Shown here piece by piece: positions 674-11,095 of a stretch of DNA of 11,095 nucleotides (positions are counted from its first letter, which is position 1; each line of letters starts with the position of its first letter). The notes below the pieces were generated by a model. It searched no databases and was not told the origin of the DNA. It was given only the letters and a program-made list of their open reading frames with translations. Position numbers and translations under genes: made by a program. Where the stretch lies: assembly GCA_016182705.1 (NCBI GenBank), contig JACPGA010000105.1, positions 1-11,095 of the forward strand, read 5' to 3'. Source of the stretch: Deltaproteobacteria bacterium. Its GTDB lineage: Bacteria; Desulfobacterota; GWC2-55-46.

Positions 674-1066
674 TCAGGGCGTAGCCGGGGTGATTACGCC
701 GGAGTAATCGACTTCTGCGGTGTTCTTCGTGAGGCCCCAGCCGGTCTGGCCGGTCAAGGTGAGGCCGCCTGACGATGCAGTCATGTCGCTGGCGCAAGAT
801 ATGCCGGTCGTCGCGTTATAGCCGCCGGTTGTAAGGTTGCCACAGGTAAGTGTCGCGCCAGGGGTATCTACCAGATATGCCTGAGCGGCGGTATAGGCGT
901 TCTTTGCGTCAGCGTTGATCGAAGCTACGTAGCCCCTCTTTCTGTAGGCTGAGAACTGCGGGATAGCTATGGCCGCCAGGATCGCTATGATAGCCACGAC
1001 TATCAGCAACTCGACGAGCGTGAAGCCTTCCTCCCTTTTAATCTTTCTTGCCATGTTTTGCAGCAT
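674..1066 (-). CDS. pilA: Type IVa major pilin PilA
   Basis: The 130-residue prepilin has a 14-residue basic leader (ending KREEG) and a class III cleavage site G14|F15, followed by FTLVELLIVVAIIAILAAIA, the canonical N-terminal alpha helix. In mature numbering F1, E5 (subunit docking), P22, F24, Y27 and Y32 are present, as in Geobacter-type pilins. The mature protein is about 116 residues, so it has a C-terminal globular part rich in Gly, Thr and Ser, with two cysteines (61 and 77) that could form a disulfide, and W96. The start at ATG 1066 is set by AGGAGG at 1075-1080, 8 nt upstream; an internal ATG at 1054 lacks this. The prepilin would be processed by a PilD peptidase not in the window and assembled by PilB/PilC. 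It is transcribed alone from a sigma-54 promoter and ends at a strong terminator. The family call is certain; major-pilin status is inferred from the locus. Confidence 0.96.
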   Translation of the reverse strand: MLQNMARKIKREEGFTLVELLIVVAIIAILAAIAIPQFSAYRKRGYVASINADAKNAYTAAQAYLVDTPGATLTCGNLTTGGYNATTGISCASDMTASSGGLTLTGQTGWGLTKNTAEVDYSGVITPATP

Positions 1067-1163: not shown

Positions 1164-1179
1164 TGCAACGCGCATGCCA
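1164..1179 (-). promoter_or_regulatory. Sigma-54 (-24/-12) promoter of pilA
   Basis: Read on the minus strand the sequence is TGGCATGCGCGTTGCA. This fits the RpoN consensus TGGCAYG-N4-TTGCA, with the GG (1178-1177) and GC (1166-1165) doublets exactly 12 bp apart. The predicted start is near 1153, giving a leader of about 87 nt before the pilA ATG. Sigma-54 control of pilA by the enhancer-binding protein PilR is known in Pseudomonas and Geobacter, and a PilR gene lies directly upstream. Confidence 0.92.
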
Positions 1180-1242: not shown

Positions 1243-1257
1243 TGACAATTTTTGTCA
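1243..1257. promoter_or_regulatory. Proximal palindromic operator/enhancer of pilA (probable PilR site)
   Basis: TGACAATTTTTGTCA is an inverted repeat with 6-bp arms and a 3-bp centre. It is centred at about -97 relative to the predicted pilA start, in the usual enhancer range for sigma-54 activators. The TGTC half-site resembles the repeated C/G-TGTC element described for PilR upstream of Pseudomonas aeruginosa pilA. The same 15 bp recur in the pilB leader on the opposite strand. Confidence 0.75.
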
Positions 1258-1263
1258 ATGACG

Positions 1264-1278
1264 TGACAAATACTGTCA
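1264..1278. promoter_or_regulatory. Distal palindromic operator/enhancer of pilA (probable PilR site)
   Basis: TGACAAATACTGTCA has 5-bp arms TGACA/TGTCA around 5 bp. Its centre is 21 bp from that of the proximal copy, about two helical turns, so both sites face the same side of the DNA. That arrangement is expected for cooperative binding of two activator dimers. It is centred at about -118. Confidence 0.72.
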
Positions 1279-1428: not shown

Positions 1429-2715
1429 TCAGTTGTCCGGAATGCCATACTTGCTGAGTTTATATCTCATGGACCTGAAAGAAAGCCCCAGAAGCTCGGC
1501 CGCCTTCTTCTTCACGCCGCCCGTTTTTTTAAGCGCGTCCATGATGATGACTCTTTCCATATCTTCTATGGTCTTTTCCAGGTCCATGCCGCCGTCAGGG
1601 ACGCCTACGCCGCCCTGGCTGTTGTTTGCGGTAGGGCATGCACTCGCGTCAATCGCAAGGCCTCGAAGGTGCTCTGGAAGGCACTCGGCCGCTATCTCGT
1701 CGCCCTGCCCGAGTGTTACCGCGCGTTCGACTATGTTTTCGAGCTCCCTTACGTTGCCGGAGTAATCATGGTCGATGATAAGCCTCATAGCCTCTTCGGA
1801 GAAGCCTTTTATGTCCTTGCCAAGGACCTGATTATACTTATTGAGGAAATGGCGCACAAGGAGCGGGATGTCCTCCTTGCGGTCCCTTAAAGCCGGGGTG
1901 TTTATACGTATGACATTGAGCCTGTAGAAGAGGTCTTCCCTGAACCTTCCGGCACGCACCTCTGCTTCGACCTCCCGGTTCGAAGCCGCCACCAGCCTTA
2001 TGTCCACTGACATGTCGGCTGTAGCCCCGACCCTCCTGAAGCTGCGCTCCTGGATGAACCTCAGGAGCTTTACCTGCAGGTGAAGCGGCAGTTCGGTTAT
2101 CTCGTCGAGAAAAAGCGTTCCCCCGTCAGCCTGCTCGGCAAGCCCTTCCCTGTTCGCAACCGCTCCCGTGAATGCCCCTTTCATATGGCCGAAGAGCTCG
2201 CTCTCAAGGAGGTTTTCAGGTATGGCCCCGCAGTTCACGGCCACAAAAGGCTTGTCCTTTCTGTCGCTCTCCGTGTGTATGGCCCTTGCCACAAGCTCCT
2301 TGCCTGTGCCGCTCTCTCCGGTTATAAACACGTTGGTCTTGGTCTTGGCGATGCTCATTATGAGAGAATATATCTCGGCCATTCTCGCGCCTGCGCCGAC
2401 AAGGTTGGAGAAACCGAACCTTGTCTTCAGCTCTTTTTTAAGGAGGCGGTTCTCGCTCTGGAGCCTTTTGAGGTCGAGGGCCTTTCTGATAGTGAGCTTT
2501 ACCTCGTCTATGTTGAAGGGCTTTATGAAATAATCGTGCGCCCCTGCCTTCATGGCCTCTATCGCGGTCTCGACGGAAGCGTAGGCCGTGATCATTATGA
2601 CCAGGGCCTCGGGGTTCATCTCCCTTAACGCCTTCAGGAAATCGATGCCGTCCATTACCGGCATCCTGACGTCAGAGATGACCAGGTCGAAATCCTCGTT
2701 TTTGAGCCGCTCCAA
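1429..2715 (-). CDS. pilR: Sigma-54 response regulator PilR, main open part (5' end cut off by stop codon)
   Basis: This is an NtrC-family activator, expected to be phosphorylated by PilS and to switch on pilA with sigma-54 polymerase. Numbered from the natural ATG at 2832, the visible part holds the end of the receiver domain with D54 (phosphate acceptor), T82 and K104. The AAA+ domain follows with Walker A GESGTGKE (172-179), the sigma-54-contacting GAFTGA loop (219-224), Walker B GGTLFLDEI (from 237) and the FREDLFYRL arginine-finger region. A Fis-type helix-turn-helix lies at the C-terminus. Codon 35 is TAA, so this frame opens only at TTG 2715, which has no visible ribosome binding site and would lack the first third of the receiver domain, including acidic residues D10 and D11. 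If made, such a fragment would not be a normal phosphorylatable regulator. The PilR call follows from placement between pilS and pilA. Confidence 0.9.
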   Translation of the reverse strand: MERLKNEDFDLVISDVRMPVMDGIDFLKALREMNPEALVIMITAYASVETAIEAMKAGAHDYFIKPFNIDEVKLTIRKALDLKRLQSENRLLKKELKTRFGFSNLVGAGARMAEIYSLIMSIAKTKTNVFITGESGTGKELVARAIHTESDRKDKPFVAVNCGAIPENLLESELFGHMKGAFTGAVANREGLAEQADGGTLFLDEITELPLHLQVKLLRFIQERSFRRVGATADMSVDIRLVAASNREVEAEVRAGRFREDLFYRLNVIRINTPALRDRKEDIPLLVRHFLNKYNQVLGKDIKGFSEEAMRLIIDHDYSGNVRELENIVERAVTLGQGDEIAAECLPEHLRGLAIDASACPTANNSQGGVGVPDGGMDLEKTIEDMERVIIMDALKKTGGVKKKAAELLGLSFRSMRYKLSKYGIPDN

Positions 2716-2727
2716 AGCGAGCTTGGC

Positions 2728-2832
2728 TTACGGGATGCCGACGGGCTCATAGCCCTCCTTCCTCAGCATTATCTCAAGGAGCTCGCGCATGTCCCGTTCA
2801 TCGTCTATTATGAGTATCCTGTTCTTTGCCAT
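2728..2832 (-). pseudogene. pilR: 5' fragment of pilR, ending at premature TAA
   Basis: ATG 2832 lies 4 nt after the pilS stop codon, so the two genes are translationally close. It opens a 34-codon frame that begins a receiver domain: a hydrophobic beta strand, then IIDDE with acidic-pocket residues D10-D11, then the first helix up to GIP (32-34). The next codon (2730-2728) is TAA. Reading through it continues in the same frame into AKLALERL and the rest of PilR. D54, T82 and K104 then fall on exactly the NtrC numbering, so the TAA replaces one sense codon and no insertion or deletion is involved. The intact protein would be 467 residues, normal for the family. Confidence 0.88.
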
Positions 2833-2836
2833 GCCT

Positions 2837-4510
2837 CTATGCCTTCAAAGCCTCGGACAGGCCCTCTACAGGAAGGAGTATCCTGAACGAGGTGCCCATT
2901 CCCTGAACGCTTTTCACGTCCAGCCTGCCGTTGTGGCTCTCAATTATCCTGTGCACTATCGCAAGGCCCAGTCCCGTGCCTTCGTCTTTCGTGGAAAAGA
3001 ACGGGTCGAATATCCTTTTGAGGTCCTCGGGGGCGATCCCCCTGCCTGTGTCCGCGACCTTTACCTCGACATACTCCCCGGGCGCCCCTCCCCTTACCGG
3101 CTCGGCATCGACGTATGAAGCCGATACCGTCAAAGCGCCTCCTCCGGGCATGGCGTGAGCCGCGTTCAGAAACAGGTTCCAGAAGACCTGGCCCAGCTGA
3201 CGGGCGTCCCCGAGTACGCGGAAGCTGCCGTCGATGCGGCAGTCAATCATGATATTTGAAGCGTCAGGCGAATGCCTGAACACCTCCATCGTCTCGCTTA
3301 TGAGAGAGCCCAGGTCTATTGAATCTTTCAGTTCCCTGGCTGGTTTCGCGAACAGGAGATAATCAGTTATGAGCTGGTTGAGTCTTTCCGTCTCGCGCAG
3401 GATTATGTCCATGAGCTTCCTGTTGTCTCCGGCAAGGCTCACTTCCTCACGTAGCATCTGTATGGAGCCGCTTATCGAGGCGAGCGGATTCCGGATCTCG
3501 TGCGCGATGCCTATGGACAACTCTCCGAGCGCCTTGAGCTTCTCGTCGCGCCGGAGCTCCTCTTCCATGGATTTGAGCCTCGTGAGGTCCTGGAATATGA
3601 CTATGCTGTCCACTTCCCCGCCCTGGCCCGAGGATATGGTAAAGCCCAGGTATATCTCTTCGCCTGTGCTCTTCGAGTACTTCTCCTCGACCCTGTCGCC
3701 TGACTGGGCAGCCTTTTTTCCCTTATCCAGCATGCCCGGGAATATCTCGTTGACATCCCTGTAGTACACGTCTCTCAGAGAATAGCCGGTTACGACCCCG
3801 GCCTCCCGGTTGAAGGTGGTTATCCTGCCTTTTTCATCGAGCGTCATTATGCCGCTCGTGATATTGCCGACTATCTGCCTGTTCAGAGTCTCAAGCTTTT
3901 CATAGTCTATTTCCTTTTCCTCGAGCTTCCTCTCCACCTTGGCGGTACGCTCGGCAAGGTAACCGGTAAGGTACGCGACCGTAAAGAAGGCGAGGATATT
4001 CGTGGAAACGGTCATGAAGACGTCTTCCCACGCTGGAACGGCAGGGTTGTCGATAATCTTGTACTTCAAAGGGAGCATGCCGTAGAAGTCCATGTCGATA
4101 AGGACCCCGTAGGCGATGCTGGAGACCGACGCCGCGAAAAAACCGCCGGATTTATTAAGGAGTATGGAAGCCCCGATAACTGAAAGCGGGTAAAGGGCAT
4201 GGAGATAGCTTGCGGTGCCGCCGGTTATATAGACGATGACGGTAGCAAGGGCGATGTCGACTGTTATCTGGCAATAAGTGAACAGTCTGAGGTTGCCCAC
4301 CCTGTTCAGGAGCAGCGCGTAAAATATCGTAAGCAGCCCTACCGCGGCGACTATTACGTAGAGCGGATAGAAGTTAAGGCTGGCAAAGGTATACTCCTTT
4401 ACCTGGAACCATGCGGTAATGCCGAGGAACGCGAGCGCGAGCACCACCCGCAGTATCATCATAGTGAGAAGTCTGGCCCTTAGCGTTCCCCTGGGTTGTG
4501 CCTGCGTCAT
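2837..4510 (-). CDS. pilS: Sensor histidine kinase PilS
   Basis: This 557-residue inner-membrane kinase is expected to phosphorylate PilR. The N-terminal 185 residues hold about six hydrophobic segments (roughly 15-35, 47-68, 76-96, 104-118, 123-139, 165-185) with almost no periplasmic loops, the PilS plan in which the pilin level is sensed within the membrane. A short coiled coil (187-211) leads to a PAS domain (about 212-310). The HisKA helix follows with phosphoacceptor H337 in HEIRNP, and then the ATPase domain with N445/N449 (N box), DTGRG (487-491), FDPFFSTK (501-508) and GTGLGL (511-516). All catalytic motifs are intact, in contrast to its partner pilR. It starts 12 nt after the pilC stop codon; the ribosome binding site is weak. 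In P. aeruginosa PilS responds to PilA in the membrane; the same role here is inferred. Confidence 0.93.
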   Translation of the reverse strand: MTQAQPRGTLRARLLTMMILRVVLALAFLGITAWFQVKEYTFASLNFYPLYVIVAAVGLLTIFYALLLNRVGNLRLFTYCQITVDIALATVIVYITGGTASYLHALYPLSVIGASILLNKSGGFFAASVSSIAYGVLIDMDFYGMLPLKYKIIDNPAVPAWEDVFMTVSTNILAFFTVAYLTGYLAERTAKVERKLEEKEIDYEKLETLNRQIVGNITSGIMTLDEKGRITTFNREAGVVTGYSLRDVYYRDVNEIFPGMLDKGKKAAQSGDRVEEKYSKSTGEEIYLGFTISSGQGGEVDSIVIFQDLTRLKSMEEELRRDEKLKALGELSIGIAHEIRNPLASISGSIQMLREEVSLAGDNRKLMDIILRETERLNQLITDYLLFAKPARELKDSIDLGSLISETMEVFRHSPDASNIMIDCRIDGSFRVLGDARQLGQVFWNLFLNAAHAMPGGGALTVSASYVDAEPVRGGAPGEYVEVKVADTGRGIAPEDLKRIFDPFFSTKDEGTGLGLAIVHRIIESHNGRLDVKSVQGMGTSFRILLPVEGLSEALKA

Positions 4511-4522
4511 TTTCTGCCCGTC

Positions 4523-5743
4523 TTAGCCACCCGCGGCGCCTGCTATCTGGAATATCGGCAGATACAGAGCTATGACAAGACCGCCGACGACCACGCCGAG
4601 AAAGGCCATGAGCATAGGCTCGATGAGTGAAGTCAGCGCCTCTACCGCCTGGTCGACCTCCTCTTCGTAAAAATCGGCTATCTTCGTGAGCATGTTATCG
4701 AGCGCGCCGGTAGACTCTCCGACCGCTATCATCTGGGTGACCATCCCGGGGAACACCTTGGTTTCCATGAGAGGATCGGCAAGCGTCTTTCCCTGGCTGA
4801 GGCTGGTGCGGGCCTTCATGATGGCCTCTTCGATTACGACGTTGCCAGAGGTCTTTGAAACTATCTCAAGGCCTTCGAGTATCGGCACGCCGCTTGAGAG
4901 CATGGTGCCGAGCGTCCTCGTGAACCTCGCGACCGCGGTTTTCCTTATGAGGTCGCCTATGACCGGCGCCTTCAGCAAAAGCTGGTCTATGAGCTTGCGG
5001 CCCTTCGGTGTCTTGTAGGCATATTTGATGCCTACGATCGTGCCGAATATGAAGCCTAAGAGGATATACCAGGAACTCTGCAGGAATTTGCTCATATTGA
5101 CGACAACCTGCGTGGGCGCCGGAAGGGACTGGCCGAAGCTCGCGAACATGTTCTCGAAAATGGGAACGACCCACAGCAGCAGTCCGGTGACAATCAGGGC
5201 TGCTATGACAATGACTGCCGAAGGATAGGTCATCGCGCCCTTTATCTTGCCCTTGAGCTTTTCGGCCTTCTCCAGAAAGCCTGAGAGCCTGTTGAGGATG
5301 GTGTCGAGGATGCCGCCCACCTCTCCGGCCGCTATGAGGTTCACGTACAGGTCGTCGAAGACCTTGGGGTGCTTCCTCAAGGCGTCGGCAAAGGTCGAGC
5401 CCCCCTCGACAGACGACTTGACTTCGATGAGGACCCTCTTGAACTCGGCATTTTCCTGCTGTGTGGCAAGGATGTCCAGGCACTGCACCAGCGGAAGCCC
5501 CGCGTCGATCATCGTGGCGAACTGGCGGCTGAATATGACCAGGTCCTTTGTCTTGACCTTCTCGGCGAACCCGGGCAGTTTTATATTTATGCCGGACAGG
5601 CCCCCGCCTTTTTTCGAAATAGAAGAGGGCATTATCTGCTGGCGCCTGAGCGCGGCTGTCGCCTGCGCGACGCTTGCCGCCTGAAGCTCCCCTTTTCTCA
5701 ACTCACCGCTTGCGGTCTTTCCTGAGTAAACGAAGGTAGGCAT
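4523..5743 (-). CDS. pilC: Type IV pilus inner-membrane platform protein PilC
   Basis: PilC is the 406-residue polytopic platform that couples the PilB and PilT motors to pilin insertion and removal. Two T2SSF (GspF/PilC) domains are visible, at about residues 68-191 and 271-393, with the repeated signatures FSRQFATMIDAGLPL and FTRTLGTMLSSGVPI, and GEVGG and GESTG later in each repeat. Membrane helices lie near 173-196, 224-243 and 374-397. The length is typical for PilC. The gene starts 3 nt after the pilT stop codon, with a GGGAGG ribosome binding site 12 nt before the ATG and inside the end of pilT, so the two are probably co-translated. Confidence 0.97.
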   Translation of the reverse strand: MPTFVYSGKTASGELRKGELQAASVAQATAALRRQQIMPSSISKKGGGLSGINIKLPGFAEKVKTKDLVIFSRQFATMIDAGLPLVQCLDILATQQENAEFKRVLIEVKSSVEGGSTFADALRKHPKVFDDLYVNLIAAGEVGGILDTILNRLSGFLEKAEKLKGKIKGAMTYPSAVIVIAALIVTGLLLWVVPIFENMFASFGQSLPAPTQVVVNMSKFLQSSWYILLGFIFGTIVGIKYAYKTPKGRKLIDQLLLKAPVIGDLIRKTAVARFTRTLGTMLSSGVPILEGLEIVSKTSGNVVIEEAIMKARTSLSQGKTLADPLMETKVFPGMVTQMIAVGESTGALDNMLTKIADFYEEEVDQAVEALTSLIEPMLMAFLGVVVGGLVIALYLPIFQIAGAAGG

Positions 5744-5746
5744 GGC

Positions 5747-6871
5747 TTAGATTGTCCTCCCGGCCGGGCCGGTGCGCATGACCCCGGCGTTGACCATCAT
5801 CTGGCGCAGTTCGTCAGGCTCCTGGCTCCTGCCGAGCGCCTCTTCGAGGGTTATGAGTCTCTTTGAATACAGGCTCATAAGGCTCTGGTTCATGGTCTGC
5901 ATGCCGAACTTGTTCTGCCCGACCTGCATCTGTGAATACAGCTGGTGTATCTTTCCTTCCCTTATGAGGTTTCTTATGGCTGCGTTTGGCACCATGATCT
6001 CTACAGAGGCCACCCTGCCCCGCCCGTCACCCCTTGGCAAAAGGAGCTGGGATATGACGCCCTCGAGCACGAACGAGAGCTGCGCCCTGACCTGCGGCTG
6101 CTGGTCGGCGGAAAACACGTCAACTATCCTGTTTATGGTCTGGATGCATGAGTTCGTGTGCAGCGTCGCGAAGCACAGATGTCCTGTCTCGGCTATGGTG
6201 AGGGCCGTCTCTATGGTCTCCTTGTCGCGCAGCTCTCCTAAAAGGACGACGTCCGGGTCCTGCCTCAGAATATATTTCAATGCCTTATTGAAAGCCTGGG
6301 TATCGTAGCCGACTTCCCGCTGGTTTACGAGGGCCGTCTTGGAGTTGTGCAGGTACTCAATAGGGTCTTCGATCGTTATGATGTGCTCAGGGCGCTCGGT
6401 GTTTATCTTGTCTATCATCGAGGCCAGCGTGGTTGATTTACCGCTGCCTGTGGGGCCGGTGACAAGCACCAGGCCGCGCGGCTTTTTGGACAGCTCTTCG
6501 ATTATCGGAGGCAGGCCGAGTTCCTGGAAGGACTTTATCTTGAACGGGATGGTCCTGAAGACCCCGGCTACCGTTCCCCTCTGTACGAAGAGGTTGCCCC
6601 TGAAACGCGACAGTCCCTTCAACCCGAACGAAAAATCGAGCTCGTTTTCTTCCTCGAACTTGTGCTTCTGGATGTCGGTCAGGACGGAATAGCAGACCTG
6701 CTTTGACTCTGTCCCCGAGAGGACTGGGCTTGTCATGGGGTTCAATTTGCCGTGAACCCTTATCCTCGGGGGCGAACCGGCTGCTATGTGCAGGTCGCTG
6801 CCGCCCTGGTCTATCATTATTCTGAGGAGTTCCTGAAGGTTATATTTGGGAGAGCCGCCTTCTGCTTCCAT
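5747..6871 (-). CDS. pilT: Type IV pilus retraction ATPase PilT
   Basis: PilT is the cytoplasmic hexameric ATPase that drives pilus depolymerisation and twitching. From ATG 6871 it has 374 residues: a PAS-like N-terminal domain with the GGSDLHI motif (23-29), Walker A GPTGSGKS (139-146), the Asp box (IEDPIEY, 167-173), Walker B DVVLLGELRD (207-216) and the His box (H231, H238). AIRNLIRE (298-305), the C-terminal motif specific to PilT and needed for retraction, separates it from PilB. ATG 6871 is chosen over GTG 6874 because AAGGAG at 6877-6882 sits 5 nt from the ATG but only 2 nt from the GTG. A 109-nt gap with a hairpin separates it from pilB, the largest gap inside the motor operon. Confidence 0.97.
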   Translation of the reverse strand: MEAEGGSPKYNLQELLRIMIDQGGSDLHIAAGSPPRIRVHGKLNPMTSPVLSGTESKQVCYSVLTDIQKHKFEEENELDFSFGLKGLSRFRGNLFVQRGTVAGVFRTIPFKIKSFQELGLPPIIEELSKKPRGLVLVTGPTGSGKSTTLASMIDKINTERPEHIITIEDPIEYLHNSKTALVNQREVGYDTQAFNKALKYILRQDPDVVLLGELRDKETIETALTIAETGHLCFATLHTNSCIQTINRIVDVFSADQQPQVRAQLSFVLEGVISQLLLPRGDGRGRVASVEIMVPNAAIRNLIREGKIHQLYSQMQVGQNKFGMQTMNQSLMSLYSKRLITLEEALGRSQEPDELRQMMVNAGVMRTGPAGRTI

Positions 6872-6902
6872 CACTTCTCCTTGAACTGCGTTAAAAAGCC
6901 TG

Positions 6903-6946
6903 GCCGGAGTTTCTTCTGGAATATTAAGTAATAAAGGCTCTCCGGC
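6903..6946 (-). repeat. Hairpin in the pilB-pilT intergenic leader
   Basis: GCCGGAG (6903-6909) and CTCCGGC (6940-6946) form a 7-bp GC-rich inverted repeat around a 30-nt AT-rich loop, ending about 20 nt before the pilT ribosome binding site. A T run follows shortly on the minus strand (AGGCTTTTTAA). It could be an attenuator or mRNA-processing element that sets the PilB:PilT ratio, or it may have no role. Confidence 0.35.
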
Positions 6947-6980
6947 GTAAGGACTAAAGTTACAAAGACAGATTAAACCG

Positions 6981-8681
6981 CTAATCGGCCATCGTGACCC
7001 TGAGTATCTCCTCGATGGTGGTCACTCCCTCGCCTACCTTGGTCACGCCGCTCATCCTCAGGGTCTTCATGCCTTCGCGTATGGCCGCCCTCTTTATCTC
7101 GGACGATGACGCGCCGTTCAGGACGAGCTCTTTTATCGTTTCGGAGAACGGCATTACCTCATAAAGGGCTATCCTGCCCTTGTAGCCGGTCCCTCCGCAG
7201 GTCGCGCAGCCGCTGCCCTTGAAGACCTCCATTTTTGCGGCCTCGGCAGGAGACAACCCAAGGTCGATGAGCACCTTTTCCGCGCTCGGCATCTTGGTCC
7301 TGCAGTCCTTGCATATCTTCCTTGCAAGCCTCTGCGCCAGTATGAGATTGCAGGCTGAAGAGACAAGGAAGGGCTCTATGCCCATGTTCAAGAGCCTGTT
7401 GACGGTGGAAGGGGCGTCGTTGGTATGGAGCGTTGAAAGGACGAGATGGCCCGTCAGGGCGGCCTTTATCGCTATCTCGGCCGTCTCGTAGTCCCTGACC
7501 TCTCCGACCATTATGATGTCGGGGTCCTGCCTCAAAAAACTCCTCAGGGAGGCCGCGAAGTTCAGGCCTATGTCCTCGTGTATCTGCACCTGGTTGATGC
7601 CGTGAAGGTTGAACTCGACCGGGTCTTCCGCGGTCGATATGTTTTCGGATATCTTGTTGAGGTCGGAAAGCGCAGAGTACAGGGTCGTTGTCTTGCCGCT
7701 TCCTGTGGGCCCCGTTACCAGCACGATGCCCCATGGCCTGTGGATGGCGCTCATGAAGTCGTTCAGGGCCTTCTGCTCGAAGCCGAGCTTGGTCATGTCG
7801 AGCTGGAGGTTGGACTTGTCCAGGAGCCTCATGACGACCTTCTCGCCGAACAGGGTCGGGAGCACGGACACCCGGTAGTCCATCTCCATGCTCTTCGAGA
7901 GCTTGAGCTTTATCCTGCCGTCCTGCGGCAGGCGCCTCTCGGCGATGTCGAGCTGGCTTATGATCTTTATCCTCGACACTATCGCGTTCTTGAGCTTTAT
8001 GGGAGGCTTCATCACCTCATGAAGGACTCCGTCTATCCTGTACCTTACCCTGAAGGTCTTTTCATAGGGCTCGATATGTATGTCGCTGGCGCCTTTTTTA
8101 ATGGCGTCGGTAAGGATAAGGTTGACGAGCTTGACGACCGGCGCGTCCTCGACGGCCTTCTTGAGGTCAGAGAGGTCTACTTCCTCCTCGTCCTGGATGA
8201 CCTCCATCTCGCTTTCGTCGAACTCCGTAAGAACGCCCTCGAGTCCGCCCATTTCAGAGGCATCGTAGTGTTTTTCAATGGCGGATTTGATGGCCGCGTC
8301 GGAAGCGACGAGAGGTTCGACGTTGTAGCCGGTGAGGAACTTTATGTCGTCTATGGCGAATATGTTGGAAGGGTCGGCCATCGCGACCACAAGGGTCGAG
8401 CCTGTCCTGCTCACCGGGATGACCTGGTATTTCTGCGCGACATCCTCGGGGATGAGCTTGACTATCTCGTGGTCTATTTCGTGGGTGGAAAGGTCTATGG
8501 TTGGAATGCCGTACTGGCGGCTCAAAAAGCCGGTCAAATCCTTTTCGGTTATATACCCCAGTTTTGTAAGGTTATAGCCGAGCCTTCCACCGCTTTTTTT
8601 CTGCTCATCGATAGCTTTCTTGAGCTGGTCGGTGGTTATTAGTCTTTCCCTGAGAAGTAGCTCGCCTATTCTGTCGGTCAT
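6981..8681 (-). CDS. pilB: Type IV pilus assembly (extension) ATPase PilB
   Basis: PilB is the cytoplasmic hexameric ATPase that powers pilin polymerisation through PilC. From ATG 8681 it has 566 residues, the usual PilB length. In order there are a GspE/MshEN N-terminal domain (about 1-140), an acidic linker (153-173), the ASDIHIEPYE motif (198-207), Walker A GPTGSGKT (324-331), the Asp box around AEDPVEF (351-357), Walker B DIIMVGEVRD (388-397, E394), a His box with H412 and H419, and the zinc-binding pairs C457/C460 and C492/C495 typical of PilB and GspE. The frame is open upstream to TTG 8705, but that start lies inside a palindromic operator and has no ribosome binding site; MTDRIGELL from 8681 is the usual family start, though its own AGGGA is only 2 nt away. 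pilB is the first gene of the motor operon and has its own promoter and operator upstream. Confidence 0.97.
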   Translation of the reverse strand: MTDRIGELLLRERLITTDQLKKAIDEQKKSGGRLGYNLTKLGYITEKDLTGFLSRQYGIPTIDLSTHEIDHEIVKLIPEDVAQKYQVIPVSRTGSTLVVAMADPSNIFAIDDIKFLTGYNVEPLVASDAAIKSAIEKHYDASEMGGLEGVLTEFDESEMEVIQDEEEVDLSDLKKAVEDAPVVKLVNLILTDAIKKGASDIHIEPYEKTFRVRYRIDGVLHEVMKPPIKLKNAIVSRIKIISQLDIAERRLPQDGRIKLKLSKSMEMDYRVSVLPTLFGEKVVMRLLDKSNLQLDMTKLGFEQKALNDFMSAIHRPWGIVLVTGPTGSGKTTTLYSALSDLNKISENISTAEDPVEFNLHGINQVQIHEDIGLNFAASLRSFLRQDPDIIMVGEVRDYETAEIAIKAALTGHLVLSTLHTNDAPSTVNRLLNMGIEPFLVSSACNLILAQRLARKICKDCRTKMPSAEKVLIDLGLSPAEAAKMEVFKGSGCATCGGTGYKGRIALYEVMPFSETIKELVLNGASSSEIKRAAIREGMKTLRMSGVTKVGEGVTTIEEILRVTMAD

Positions 8682-8699
8682 CGTCCCTGATAGTGGTGG

Positions 8700-8714
8700 T
8701 GACAAAAATTGTCA
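8700..8714. promoter_or_regulatory. Palindromic operator in the pilB leader, identical to the pilA site
   Basis: TGACAAAAATTGTCA is the exact reverse complement of the proximal pilA site at 1243-1257 (15 of 15 bases). It is centred 26 bp upstream of the pilB ATG and starts 6 nt downstream of a predicted -10 box, so the transcription start would fall inside it. That position suits repression or a roadblock rather than activation at a distance. Confidence 0.7.
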
Positions 8715-8719
8715 ACATT

Positions 8720-8749
8720 ATGATAGTAAATTCAGCCTACGCTTGTCAA
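8720..8749 (-). promoter_or_regulatory. Putative sigma-70-type promoter of pilB
   Basis: On the minus strand TTGACA (8749-8744) matches the -35 consensus fully, and TATCAT (8725-8720) matches five of six -10 positions, with an 18-bp spacer. The predicted start near 8713 lies inside the palindrome at 8700-8714. No -24/-12 sequence was found upstream of pilB, so the motor operon seems to use a different sigma factor from pilA. Confidence 0.55.
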
Positions 8750-8816
8750 GGCAGTCTTCAAACGATTTCTTTTCCTGCCAAACACCTGAAATCACTTGCC
8801 TTTTCAGCGCGCCTTT

Positions 8817-9191
8817 TCAGGCATACTTTGTGGCGGTCGAGACTATCTCCTCTGAAAAGAACGGTTTCCTGATATACGCGTCTATCATGCCTTCCTTGAC
8901 CCCCTGGAATATGTCCCGGTCGGCATCCTTGAAGTATCCTGTGAAGAGCACCACCCTTATGCCGGGGCGGACTTTCTTGATTTCCCTGAAAGTCTCGAGC
9001 CCGTTCAGGCCGGGCATTATCATATCCATGAATACCAGTGAACAGTCCGTGTCTTTAAGCACATTTATGCCATCTTTGCCACTGGTCACGTACTGGGCTT
9101 TGAAACCGGCGTCCTTGAGCATCTCTGACATCCCGATGCCAACGGTCTCTTCGTCGTCTATTATGAGGACTTTTTTTTCCCTCTCAGCCAT
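8817..9191 (-). CDS. Single-domain (CheY-like) response regulator
   Basis: A 124-residue stand-alone receiver domain. The acidic pocket D12-D13, phosphoacceptor D56 (in FMDMIMPG), T84 (in LFTGY) and K109 (in RKPF) are all present, so it should be phosphorylatable. There is no DNA-binding or enzymatic output domain, so it would signal by protein contact or act as a phosphorelay intermediate or phosphate sink. AGGAGG at 9197-9202 sits 5 nt before the ATG. It lies 98 nt downstream of the hybrid-free histidine kinase, its likely partner, and 135 nt upstream of pilB. Its neighbours suggest control of pilus motor function or expression, but the target cannot be read from the sequence. Confidence 0.92.
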   Translation of the reverse strand: MAEREKKVLIIDDEETVGIGMSEMLKDAGFKAQYVTSGKDGINVLKDTDCSLVFMDMIMPGLNGLETFREIKKVRPGIRVVLFTGYFKDADRDIFQGVKEGMIDAYIRKPFFSEEIVSTATKYA

Positions 9192-9289
9192 CCAAACCTC
9201 CTATCTTATCGGCTCATTTTTTTCAGTCTTAAGGGTTAGTTGAAAATTTACAGCCATACCCGCTGAATTTTCAGCTTCATGAAAAAAAC

Positions 9290-10555
9290 TCATGTTTGCG
9301 CGGCAGATCCGCTGCCTGCCAGGCGTTCTCGTTCACCAGTGTGAACCGGCAGGTAAATACGGAAAACAGCGCCTCCTTCAGGGCTGTTCGCCGCCTCTAT
9401 CCTGCCGCCGTGCTCCTTTACTATGCTGAGCGATATTGAAAGCCCAAGGCCGATATTATGGCCGCCGCCCTTCTCCTTGGTCGTGAAAAAGGGGTCGAAT
9501 ATCTTGTCCGCCAGATCAGCGGGTATGCCGGCTCCGGTGTCCCTGAACTCGGCCATCGCGAATCTGCTCCCGTTTTCCTCTACTGACTCGGTCGATATGA
9601 ATATCGTGCCTGCCCCGCCCATGGCGTCCCTCGCGTTTTTCAGGACGTTAAGGACCACTTCCATTATCTGCCCTTTGTTCCCCATCACCTTTGGGAGCTG
9701 AGGGTCGAATTTCTCGACTATCTCGATTGATTTCGTTTTCACCTCGGAGGTGAATATGGTAAGAGTGGCCCGTATGCACTCGTTCAGGAATGTCGGGGCG
9801 TACACTTCCCTTGAAGGCCTGGAATAGGTGAGCATGTCGAGGATGATGTACTTTGACCTTACGGCCGCGTCTTTTATCTTTTCGAGAAGGAAGTAGTTTC
9901 TGTCGTCTTTCGGCGTCCTTGCAAGAAGGACCTCCGCAATGCTGAGTATCCCGGCAAGCGGGCTGTTGAGCTCATGGGCTATTCCGGCGCCCATCTCGCC
10001 CAGGGATATGAGCTTTGCTGACTGAATGAGCATCTGCTCGGAGTTTTTAAGCTTCCTGTACGCCTCTTCGAGCTCGTTTACAGAGCTGTCCAGCTCCGCG
10101 GTGCGCACCCTGACAGTCTCTTCCAGGACCCCGAGCTGCCTTCTTATGGTTTCTTCAAGCCCTTTTCTCTCGGAGATGTCCCTCCATATCTCCAGTATGT
10201 ATTTCCTGTCTTTTATCTCGATGAGGGACGCCGCTATTTCCACCGGCACCAGGAAGCCATCCTTTTTGGTGACCATCGCGCCAAGGAGATAGCCTTTTTC
10301 ATCATGCACCCAACGCCGCACGGCCTGGTTGTAATCGAACAGCTTCTGGAGAGGGAACAGGTCTTTGGGCCCCATCCTGAGCAGTTCATCCCTGGAGTAT
10401 CCCGAAAGCATTACAGCGGTCTTGTTCACTTCGGCGTACAGGCCTGTCTCAAGGTCGCGAAGGAGTATGGCGTCGGCTGCCATGTTGACCAGTTTGGAGT
10501 ACTTCTCTCCGAGCTCGCTCAAGTCTTCGGAGGCCGTCTCAAGGGAAGCTGCCAT
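9290..10555 (-). CDS. Sensor histidine kinase, PAS-HisKA-ATPase part (C-terminal fragment of frameshifted gene)
   Basis: 421 residues from the first in-frame ATG after the frameshift. The order is the end of a HAMP/linker helix (1-20), a PAS domain (about 19-130), a coiled coil (130-175), HisKA with phosphoacceptor H194 in HELNSPL, and the ATPase domain with N307 (N box), DTGAG (339-343), FDPFFTTK (353-360) and GLGLS (368-372). All kinase motifs are intact. The membrane and sensor half lies in another frame at 10539-11095; removing one copy of the 40-bp tandem repeat at 10519-10598 fuses the two into one continuous protein. ATG 10555 is therefore probably an internal methionine of the HAMP-linked helix, not a true start, and no good ribosome binding site precedes it. 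It lies upstream of the receiver gene at 8817-9191, its likely partner. Confidence 0.88.
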   Translation of the reverse strand: MAASLETASEDLSELGEKYSKLVNMAADAILLRDLETGLYAEVNKTAVMLSGYSRDELLRMGPKDLFPLQKLFDYNQAVRRWVHDEKGYLLGAMVTKKDGFLVPVEIAASLIEIKDRKYILEIWRDISERKGLEETIRRQLGVLEETVRVRTAELDSSVNELEEAYRKLKNSEQMLIQSAKLISLGEMGAGIAHELNSPLAGILSIAEVLLARTPKDDRNYFLLEKIKDAAVRSKYIILDMLTYSRPSREVYAPTFLNECIRATLTIFTSEVKTKSIEIVEKFDPQLPKVMGNKGQIMEVVLNVLKNARDAMGGAGTIFISTESVEENGSRFAMAEFRDTGAGIPADLADKIFDPFFTTKEKGGGHNIGLGLSISLSIVKEHGGRIEAANSPEGGAVFRIYLPVHTGERERLAGSGSAAQT

Positions 10556-10598
10556 GCCTCAAGTCTTCGGCAGCCGCCGCGAGGGAAGCTGCCATGCC
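10519..10598. repeat. 40-bp imperfect tandem duplication that shifts the kinase frame
   Basis: Units 10519-10558 and 10559-10598 are adjacent and match at 35 of 40 positions. On the minus strand each encodes a version of GMAASL..A.EDL: the upstream unit reads AAAAEDL and the downstream unit ETASEDL. Because 40 is not a multiple of three, the second copy is out of frame and the first reading frame ends at 10539. Deleting either copy restores one open frame. Confidence 0.95.
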
Positions 10599-11095
10599 GT
10601 CGAACGCCTCTCCCAGCTCTTCAAACTCATCCCCTGACCTCAGATGCACCCTGTAGTCGAACCTTCCGCCAGCAAGCTCCAGAGCCCCCTGCCTGAGGCT
10701 CTCCAGGGGCTCGAGAAGCCTCCTGTGCACGAGCATGAGGACCGCGAAAGAGGTCGCGAGCAGTATGGCACCGCCCCAGATATAGAATTTAATCCTGTGG
10801 CTGGAGATGATCCTTTCATGTTCCTTCATGGACACAGTCACGGAGAGCGCGCCGGAGACGCCTCCGCTCCTGCCGAAATGGCATTTTCCGCAGCTTTTAT
10901 CGTAGAGCACCGGCATGACAGTCCTGGCCACCTTGTACCCGGAATGCGAGCGGTTTACGGCTTGCGACGGGACACCTTCAAGCGCGGCCCTGTCAAGGGC
11001 GTCCCTCGGGACCTCGTCCATCTCTATGCCGTACTGCTTGTCAATAGATGGCCCGTGGACTATCCGTATTTCCTCTATGCCGTCGATCTTGCGGA
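10539..11095 (-). CDS. Sensor histidine kinase, periplasmic c-heme sensor-TM-HAMP part (N-terminal fragment, 5' end beyond window)
   Basis: The frame is open to the right edge (184 residues visible) and ends at a stop codon created by the 40-bp duplication. The visible start, around EIRIVHGP and KQYG, resembles the periplasmic sensor domains found in kinases and chemoreceptors of Geobacter-type bacteria. CGKCH (10878-10892) is a c-type heme attachment motif near the end of this domain. A transmembrane helix (about 25 residues after SSHRIK) leads to a HAMP domain (LEPLESLRQGA to FDGMAAS). The fragment would be a membrane protein with no kinase domain; joined to 9290-10555 it gives the standard plan sensor-TM-HAMP-PAS-HisKA-ATPase. 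A redox or heme-linked signal is inferred from the CxxCH motif; one such motif by itself does not prove heme binding. Confidence 0.85.
   Translation of the reverse strand, partial: RKIDGIEEIRIVHGPSIDKQYGIEMDEVPRDALDRAALEGVPSQAVNRSHSGYKVARTVMPVLYDKSCGKCHFGRSGGVSGALSVTVSMKEHERIISSHRIKFYIWGGAILLATSFAVLMLVHRRLLEPLESLRQGALELAGGRFDYRVHLRSGDEFEELGEAFDGMAASLAAAAEDLRHGSFP

Follow-up and report, generated by a model that had tools for sequence, protein, structure and literature searches.

A palindrome of the pilA enhancers recurs over the predicted pilB start site: a candidate PilR operator in an order of Desulfobacterota

Introduction

What could a sequence typical of pilin enhancers do over the transcription start of the operon that encodes the pilus motors, and which protein would read it there? 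This question is raised by a stretch of 11,095 nt from a Deltaproteobacteria bacterium (contig JACPGA010000105.1), analysed here as a whole and called the window. Its pilA gene is preceded by two copies of a palindrome, TGACA-N5-TGTCA, and a third copy lies in front of pilB. We compared these sites with those of related genomes, considered the proteins which might bind them, and weighed the activities they might have at pilB.

Results

Genes of the window

The minus strand of the window encodes, in this order, a HAMP protein, a kinase, a receiver-only regulator, PilB, PilT, PilC, PilS, PilR and PilA (Pfam; Table 1). The pil gene names are those we assume from domain content and position; for the retraction ATPase, the name PilT is presumed from position. 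In all 14 clusters compared, the genes pilB-pilT-pilC-pilS-pilR run in one direction and without change of order, pilR being part of the pilB cluster each time; they may form one transcript. A gap of 106 nt separates pilB from pilT, so that separate promoters are possible for pilS and pilR; no terminator-like site was found within 6700-8900, the stretch scanned. In this assembly an in-frame TAA (2730-2728, minus strand) interrupts pilR within the receiver domain. The stop may reflect a genuine interruption or a mistake in the assembly. The PilR matches in two relatives, G001 and G003, lie in open frames of 472 and 467 aa.

The HAMP protein, the kinase and the receiver-only regulator lie directly upstream of pilB (8817-11021). 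The frames of the HAMP protein and the kinase overlap, and by eye they resemble a single kinase that has been split. A kinase and/or a receiver-only regulator is found beside pilB in 12 of the 14 clusters, the exceptions being those of L018 and L019.

Table 1. Regulatory sites and pil genes of the window
Feature	Position	Strand	Basis or remark
Distal pilA enhancer palindrome	1264..1278	-	Starts at -99 from the -24 box
Proximal pilA enhancer palindrome	1243..1257	-	Start 78 bp before the -24 box; identical to the reverse complement of 8700..8714
pilA sigma-54 promoter, TGGCATGCGCGTTGCA	1164..1179	-	Box begins 78 bp past the start of the proximal site
Palindrome TGACA-N5-TGTCA, candidate operator over the predicted pilB transcription start	8700..8714	-	-33 to -19 from the ATG; in 22/25 family leaders
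pilB promoter, -35 box TTGACA	8744..8749	-	Promoter scan and relatives
pilB promoter, -10 box TATCAT	8720..8725	-	Promoter scan; 18-nt spacer
pilB, assembly ATPase	6981..8681	-	Pfam: MshEN, T2SSE
pilT (presumed name), retraction ATPase	5747..6874	-	Pfam: T2SSE
pilC, platform protein	4523..5743	-	Pfam: T2SSF
pilS, sensor kinase	2837..4510	-	Pfam: 6TM_PilS, PAS, HisKA, HATPase_c
pilR	1429..2832	-	Pfam: receiver, Sigma54_activat, Fis-type HTH (HTH_8); GAFTGA present; receiver split by an in-frame stop
pilA, type IV pilin	674..1066	-	Pfam: N_methyl

The exact palindrome is confined to the pil locus in the source genome

The letters at 8700-8714, TGACAAAAATTGTCA, are the exact reverse complement of those at 1243-1257 (TGACAATTTTTGTCA), about 7.4 kb away, as a first-pass annotation of this DNA had claimed for the pilB site and the proximal pilA site. 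Its further statement that the window holds no TGACA-N5-TGTCA beyond the pilA and pilB sites stands as well, the distal pilA site at 1264-1278 being the only match besides these two.

In the source genome (1.63 Mb, 61% complete) the exact form occurs three times, always inside the window, and the same motif read backwards, used as control, is not found at all. Frequent occurrence in unrelated or coding DNA, named by the annotation as an outcome that would speak against its reading, was not observed for this exact form, all three copies being at pil genes. When one mismatch was allowed, 40 sites (37 beyond the three exact ones) were obtained against 11 for the control, so that only the exact form is specific in this genome. 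Seven of the 37 one-mismatch sites were drawn and five were read in their context: three lie within a long open frame and two outside. One of these two is just upstream of a gene that is Fur-like by eye.

The pilB site overlaps a sigma-70-type promoter

The candidate operator starts 5 nt past the -10 box of pilB and stops 18 nt short of its ATG (8681), overlapping the predicted start region of a sigma-70 promoter. This promoter, TTGACA-18-TATCAT, matches the consensus at 11 of 12 positions. Since a promoter scan of the pilB region gave two promoter-like sites compared to 1.0 in shuffled sequences, we place the weight for this promoter on its conservation rather than on the scan. The flanking boxes confirm the earlier description of a single pilB site lying just downstream of a sigma-70-type -10 box, over the predicted start. 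The site carries the same recognition sequence as the pilA enhancers, and its core is common to the sites of relatives too.

Conservation of the pilB site

It had been proposed that pilB leaders of relatives be compared, absence of the copy from all of them being the outcome that would speak against it. Among 28 genomes of the family with a pilB match, 25 leaders could be used (G021, G022 and G028 were omitted because the start is missing), and 22 of these 25, the window included, carry the site when up to one mismatch is tolerated. When the same 25 leaders were shuffled, a pilB-type site was found in 0.18 of them on average and in 2 at maximum. The three leaders without the site are those of G006, G013 and G020. 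Two genomes, G002 and G004, gave no pilB match in the family search, but the site was found in G002 where a contig ends.

Beyond the family, 24 matches gave 23 leaders (G046 omitted, start missing), from which G049, G050 and G053 were removed for mis-set starts, which left 15 leaders from the order's other families and 5 from beyond the order. The site is found in 6 of the 15 (G031, G033, G036, G039, G040 and G044) and is missing in 9, and none of the 5 readable leaders outside the order carries it. In the leader of G030 (L196) the pilB site is degenerate (tACAATTTTTGTAAc) and a one-mismatch palindrome overlaps the -35 box; this palindrome is not counted here as a pilB site (counting it would give 7/15), and the operator has possibly shifted onto the -35 box. 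The pilB copy, seen only in the order, seems to have been lost repeatedly, as judged from its distribution rather than from a tree.

In 25 of the 28 leaders with the site a recognisable promoter is present, with the site 5-13 nt past the -10 box (the pattern allowed 3-13). The three others gave no promoter match, G018 being masked by N and G009 and G039 unmatched. The site of G009 stands at -81, that of G040 at -168 from the ATG. The spacer between the -10 and -35 boxes is 17 nt in 20 of 25 leaders. Between-genus identity was calculated for 20 family leaders chosen by promoter and site: the -35 box reaches 0.97, the -10 box 0.77 and the site 0.95, compared with 0.44 for the spacer between the boxes and 0.31 for the stretch just downstream of the site. 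Because boxes and site served to choose the rows, the fair contrast is that of the diverged spacer and downstream stretch with bases that were not selected: the two unselected bases after the pilB core are invariant, and the five-base centre is ATTTT in 20/25. A search of 63 genomes of the class with the promoter-plus-site pattern gave 25 matches in 24 genomes, 23 of them at pilB, and none for the control. Taken together, these comparisons of sequences support the pilB copy as a real and conserved site, for the most part specific to pil loci and equivalent in kind to the pilA enhancers.

Two matches to the promoter-plus-site pattern have another setting, one in G040 upstream of a gene that is Rrf2-like by eye, one in G039 in a 3-kb locus without pil match.

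Specificity for pil loci in relatives

In related genomes the N5 form alone discriminates less well, with 0-8 sites per genome and at least one in 49 of 59 genomes; G005 has seven such sites, two of which are at pilA. For the AT-centred form GACA-W5-TGTCA, ten near-complete genomes of the family hold 26 distinct sites, of which 24 are at pilA or pilB, and the control gave one single-strand match each in G003 and G005. The two non-pil sites, both in G005, are at the start of open frames. The clustering at pilus, flagellar or cytochrome genes that the first-pass annotation had envisaged is therefore borne out for pilus genes by 24 of 26 AT-centred sites, and not for flagellar or cytochrome genes. 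A broad regulon including the latter was set aside, the AT-centred sites of the ten relatives being almost confined to pilA and pilB.

An enhancer-bearing pilin gene can be far from pilB: it is about 186 kb away in G017, about 180 kb away in G008 and on another contig in G027. Because the pilB site is kept in all three, it most likely serves pilB and not a neighbouring pilA. Apart from these loci, a contig of G022 (C1; L156, 156-252) carries three exact palindromes within 100 bp at its end, with no adjoining recognisable pilin.

Paired sites at fixed distance from the pilA sigma-54 promoter

At pilA the two sites begin 78 and 99 bp before the sigma-54 box (1179-1164, minus strand), in agreement with the claim that they lie upstream of such a promoter. 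We listed by hand 36 pilA-type promoters, that is promoters of the class with a -24/-12 box. With up to one mismatch allowed, 28/36 have the proximal site at -77 to -80 and 27/36 the distal site at -97 to -101; random positions in the same loci reach that match in about 0.3% of 10,800 draws. Left outside the 36 are, among others, G025, G022b, G018b, the far pilin of G017, G199, G348, G329, G418 and the second G044 locus. The pair of G032 is about 10 bp nearer the promoter and so is missed by fixed offsets. No pilin was found in the stretches of G041, G042, G047 and G048 (20 of 24 genomes looked at).

Of 395 genomes sampled from the phylum, 8 contain the exact tandem. It directly precedes a pilin in 6 of them, and in the two remaining genomes the contig ends just beyond a sigma-54 box. 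With these tandems at the level of the phylum and the pilB copy seen only in the order, the pilA element is wider and probably older than the pilB copy, its age being estimated from occurrence and not from a tree.

Two further arrangements were noticed. In G022 (L147, 6552-6724 on the reverse complement) a second pilin gene is preceded by a separate sigma-54-like box, and 74 bp before this box begins a site with one mismatch. In L158 and L159 (family f54) a tandem pair at 1501-1538, near the contig end, has a PilB-like gene (by eye) on one side, and the sigma-54 box beyond the pair faces the other way.

PilR as the probable binding protein

The pilA region has two features by which NtrC-type enhancers are recognised, a dyad-symmetric site in tandem upstream of a -24/-12 box and, encoded nearby, an activator with AAA+ domain, GAFTGA motif and Fis-type HTH, which is PilR (its frame being interrupted in the assembly). 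Because the element stands at a fixed distance from sigma-54 boxes, a sigma-54 activator is implied as its binder. Among the nine window proteins scanned (Pfam), only PilR has a DNA-binding domain; the receiver-only protein at 8817-9191 has none and was set aside as the regulator. The recognition-helix core [FL]R[SA]xRY is present in 50 of 53 PilR matches, with SFRSMRYKL exactly in 31, and the three matches without it are distant relatives of 48-50% identity. Two traits which played no part in finding the sites can be compared between the genes: an AT-rich centre is common to pilB and pilA sites, and a C follows TGTCA in 25/25 pilB sites, 20/31 proximal and 13/29 distal pilA sites. These features support PilR, very likely the protein that binds the TGACA-N5-TGTCA sites. 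Against this, G009 and G010 keep the pilB site, yet the pilA promoter examined there shows no good enhancer.

Discussion

A proposed circuit

Our main reading, to which we give a probability of about 0.68 as a whole, is that PilR activates pilA and represses the pilB operon through a common site. TGACA-N5-TGTCA would be recognised by PilR, whose gene lies in the cluster and which is a sigma-54 activator of the NtrC type. In front of pilA, two PilR dimers would sit about two turns apart, on sites starting about 78 and about 100 bp before the -24 box, and activated PilR assembled on this pair would drive sigma-54 transcription of the pilin gene. At pilB, a single dimer would occupy the site over the sigma-70 start region. 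Positions 5-13 nt after a -10 box are inside the region which RNA polymerase covers at initiation, and a bound dimer is therefore expected to block the polymerase. The blocked promoter would leave pilB-pilT-pilC-pilS-pilR repressed, so that PilR would restrain production of the pilus motors and of itself; once activated, it would also increase pilin. PilR binding at pilB and its repressive effect are suggested by the position of the site, its likeness to the pilA sites and the precedent of NtrC at glnALG; we consider repression the likely outcome of binding.

Whether PilR is a two-way switch throughout the order, uncoupling filament from motor with pilin on and ATPases, platform and PilS/PilR off, is to us an even bet. 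If it were, active PilR would yield abundant pilin under a limited supply of motors, conditions in favour of fibres that are few, long or static, and the response would take the form of a self-limiting pulse. One two-component system could then set pilin and motor levels separately. The palindrome is likely the code by which PilR reads DNA across a large group of uncultured bacteria. It also suggests a circuit, open to experiment, whose pilus regulator would act against the motor operon that encodes it.

Other readings of the pilB site

A dedicated repressor other than PilR might occupy all three sites or the pilB site alone. Dyad sites are used by many regulators, and the pilB sites have a more invariant centre (the ATTTT mentioned above) and a freer first base than the pilA sites. 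However, the same sequence stands at a fixed distance before the sigma-54 boxes of most of the 36 class promoters, a spacing that calls for a sigma-54 activator, and the scanned proteins of the window include no DNA-binding candidate but PilR; we regard a separate repressor as unlikely. PilR could also bind at pilB without repressing it, the site being a decoy, an enhancer acting on pilA from 7.4 kb away or a point of weak activation. Sigma-54 enhancers are able to act at distance, which speaks for this possibility. Against it, the site is tied to the -10 box and not to pilA, no sigma-54 box was found in the pilB leader of the window, and G008, G017 and G027 keep the site despite their remote pilin genes, making a distant enhancer for pilA in particular unlikely. 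A pilR mutant of Pseudomonas aeruginosa has less pilB transcript, a sign opposite to our prediction and favourable to non-repressing PilR (excerpts of PMC6058289). On balance we find such binding about as improbable as a separate repressor.

The palindrome might instead work in the message, as a hairpin at the RNA 5' end that stabilises it or tunes translation, its likeness to the pilA sites being incidental. Palindrome and five following bases can fold into a six-pair hairpin (-3.8 kcal/mol), of which a five-pair version is the sole consensus helix of 26 leaders (RNAalifold). Yet the outer pair is broken in 14/25 and pair 6-10 in 2/25 with no compensating changes, a longer piece of the window leader takes another fold, the 26 leaders show no gain in folding over mononucleotide shuffles (mean z -0.46) and no Rfam match reached the gathering score. 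With the same sequence serving as enhancer sites upstream of a promoter, this weak reading is very improbable. Chance recurrence of a short palindrome could be invoked, ten fixed bases being expected about 1.5 times in 1.63 Mb (uniform-base estimate), but it is countered by the occurrence of the site in family leaders far above the shuffled mean and by genome-wide counts showing the sites to be pil-specific, and can hardly be credited. Among these possibilities, a PilR operator at pilB is the reading we retain.

Comparison with known systems

The circuit logic is known from NtrC; for pili it is new as far as our searches show, no such circuit being described for type IV pili in the open-access literature searched. 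In Escherichia coli the glnL operator overlaps the transcription start. NtrC control is positive at glnAp2 and negative at glnAp1; the source infers negative control also at glnLp of NtrC's own operon (PMC3870243; this and the papers below are cited from excerpts). The likeness to the proposed circuit lies in one sigma-54 activator, paired enhancers and negative control of promoters for its own sensor and regulator genes. In contrast, the pil operon adds motors and platform, sites, regulator and pathway differ, and repression of pilB is predicted. Caulobacter NtrC likewise binds and represses its own operon and activates others, an NtrC-family autorepressor as proposed for PilR; it is without GAFTGA, which the window PilR has (PMC10274813).

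Two reports yielded no motif to compare in the excerpts available: the motif letters were not found in that of the P. syringae PilR paper (PMC7532196), nor any motif for pili in that of the Desulfovibrio map (PMC3333781). In P. aeruginosa, PilS-PilR and sigma-54 control pilin as proposed here, whereas pilB is divergent from pilA and falls in the pilR mutant, and the hallmarks of PilR binding, TGT-N11-AGA and GTCT elements, differ from the window site (PMC6058289). The Myxococcus xanthus NmpR site, GCGCA-N5-TGCGC, shares five-base arms, the N5 centre, an NtrC-like regulator, paired sites and a sigma-54 promoter, but its bases differ and NmpR activates at its own operon; the gap between paired sites is 14-15 nt in 5/7 promoters and 5 nt at pilR, compared to about 5-8 nt here (PMC11841059). 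In Geobacter sulfurreducens, pilA follows pilR directly, carries an RpoN promoter and is under PilR control (PMC2725144), an arrangement like that proposed for the window. For Geobacter PilR 54 loci are predicted (cited in PMC6058289), whereas the regulon in the genomes studied here is apparently almost confined to pilA and pilB.
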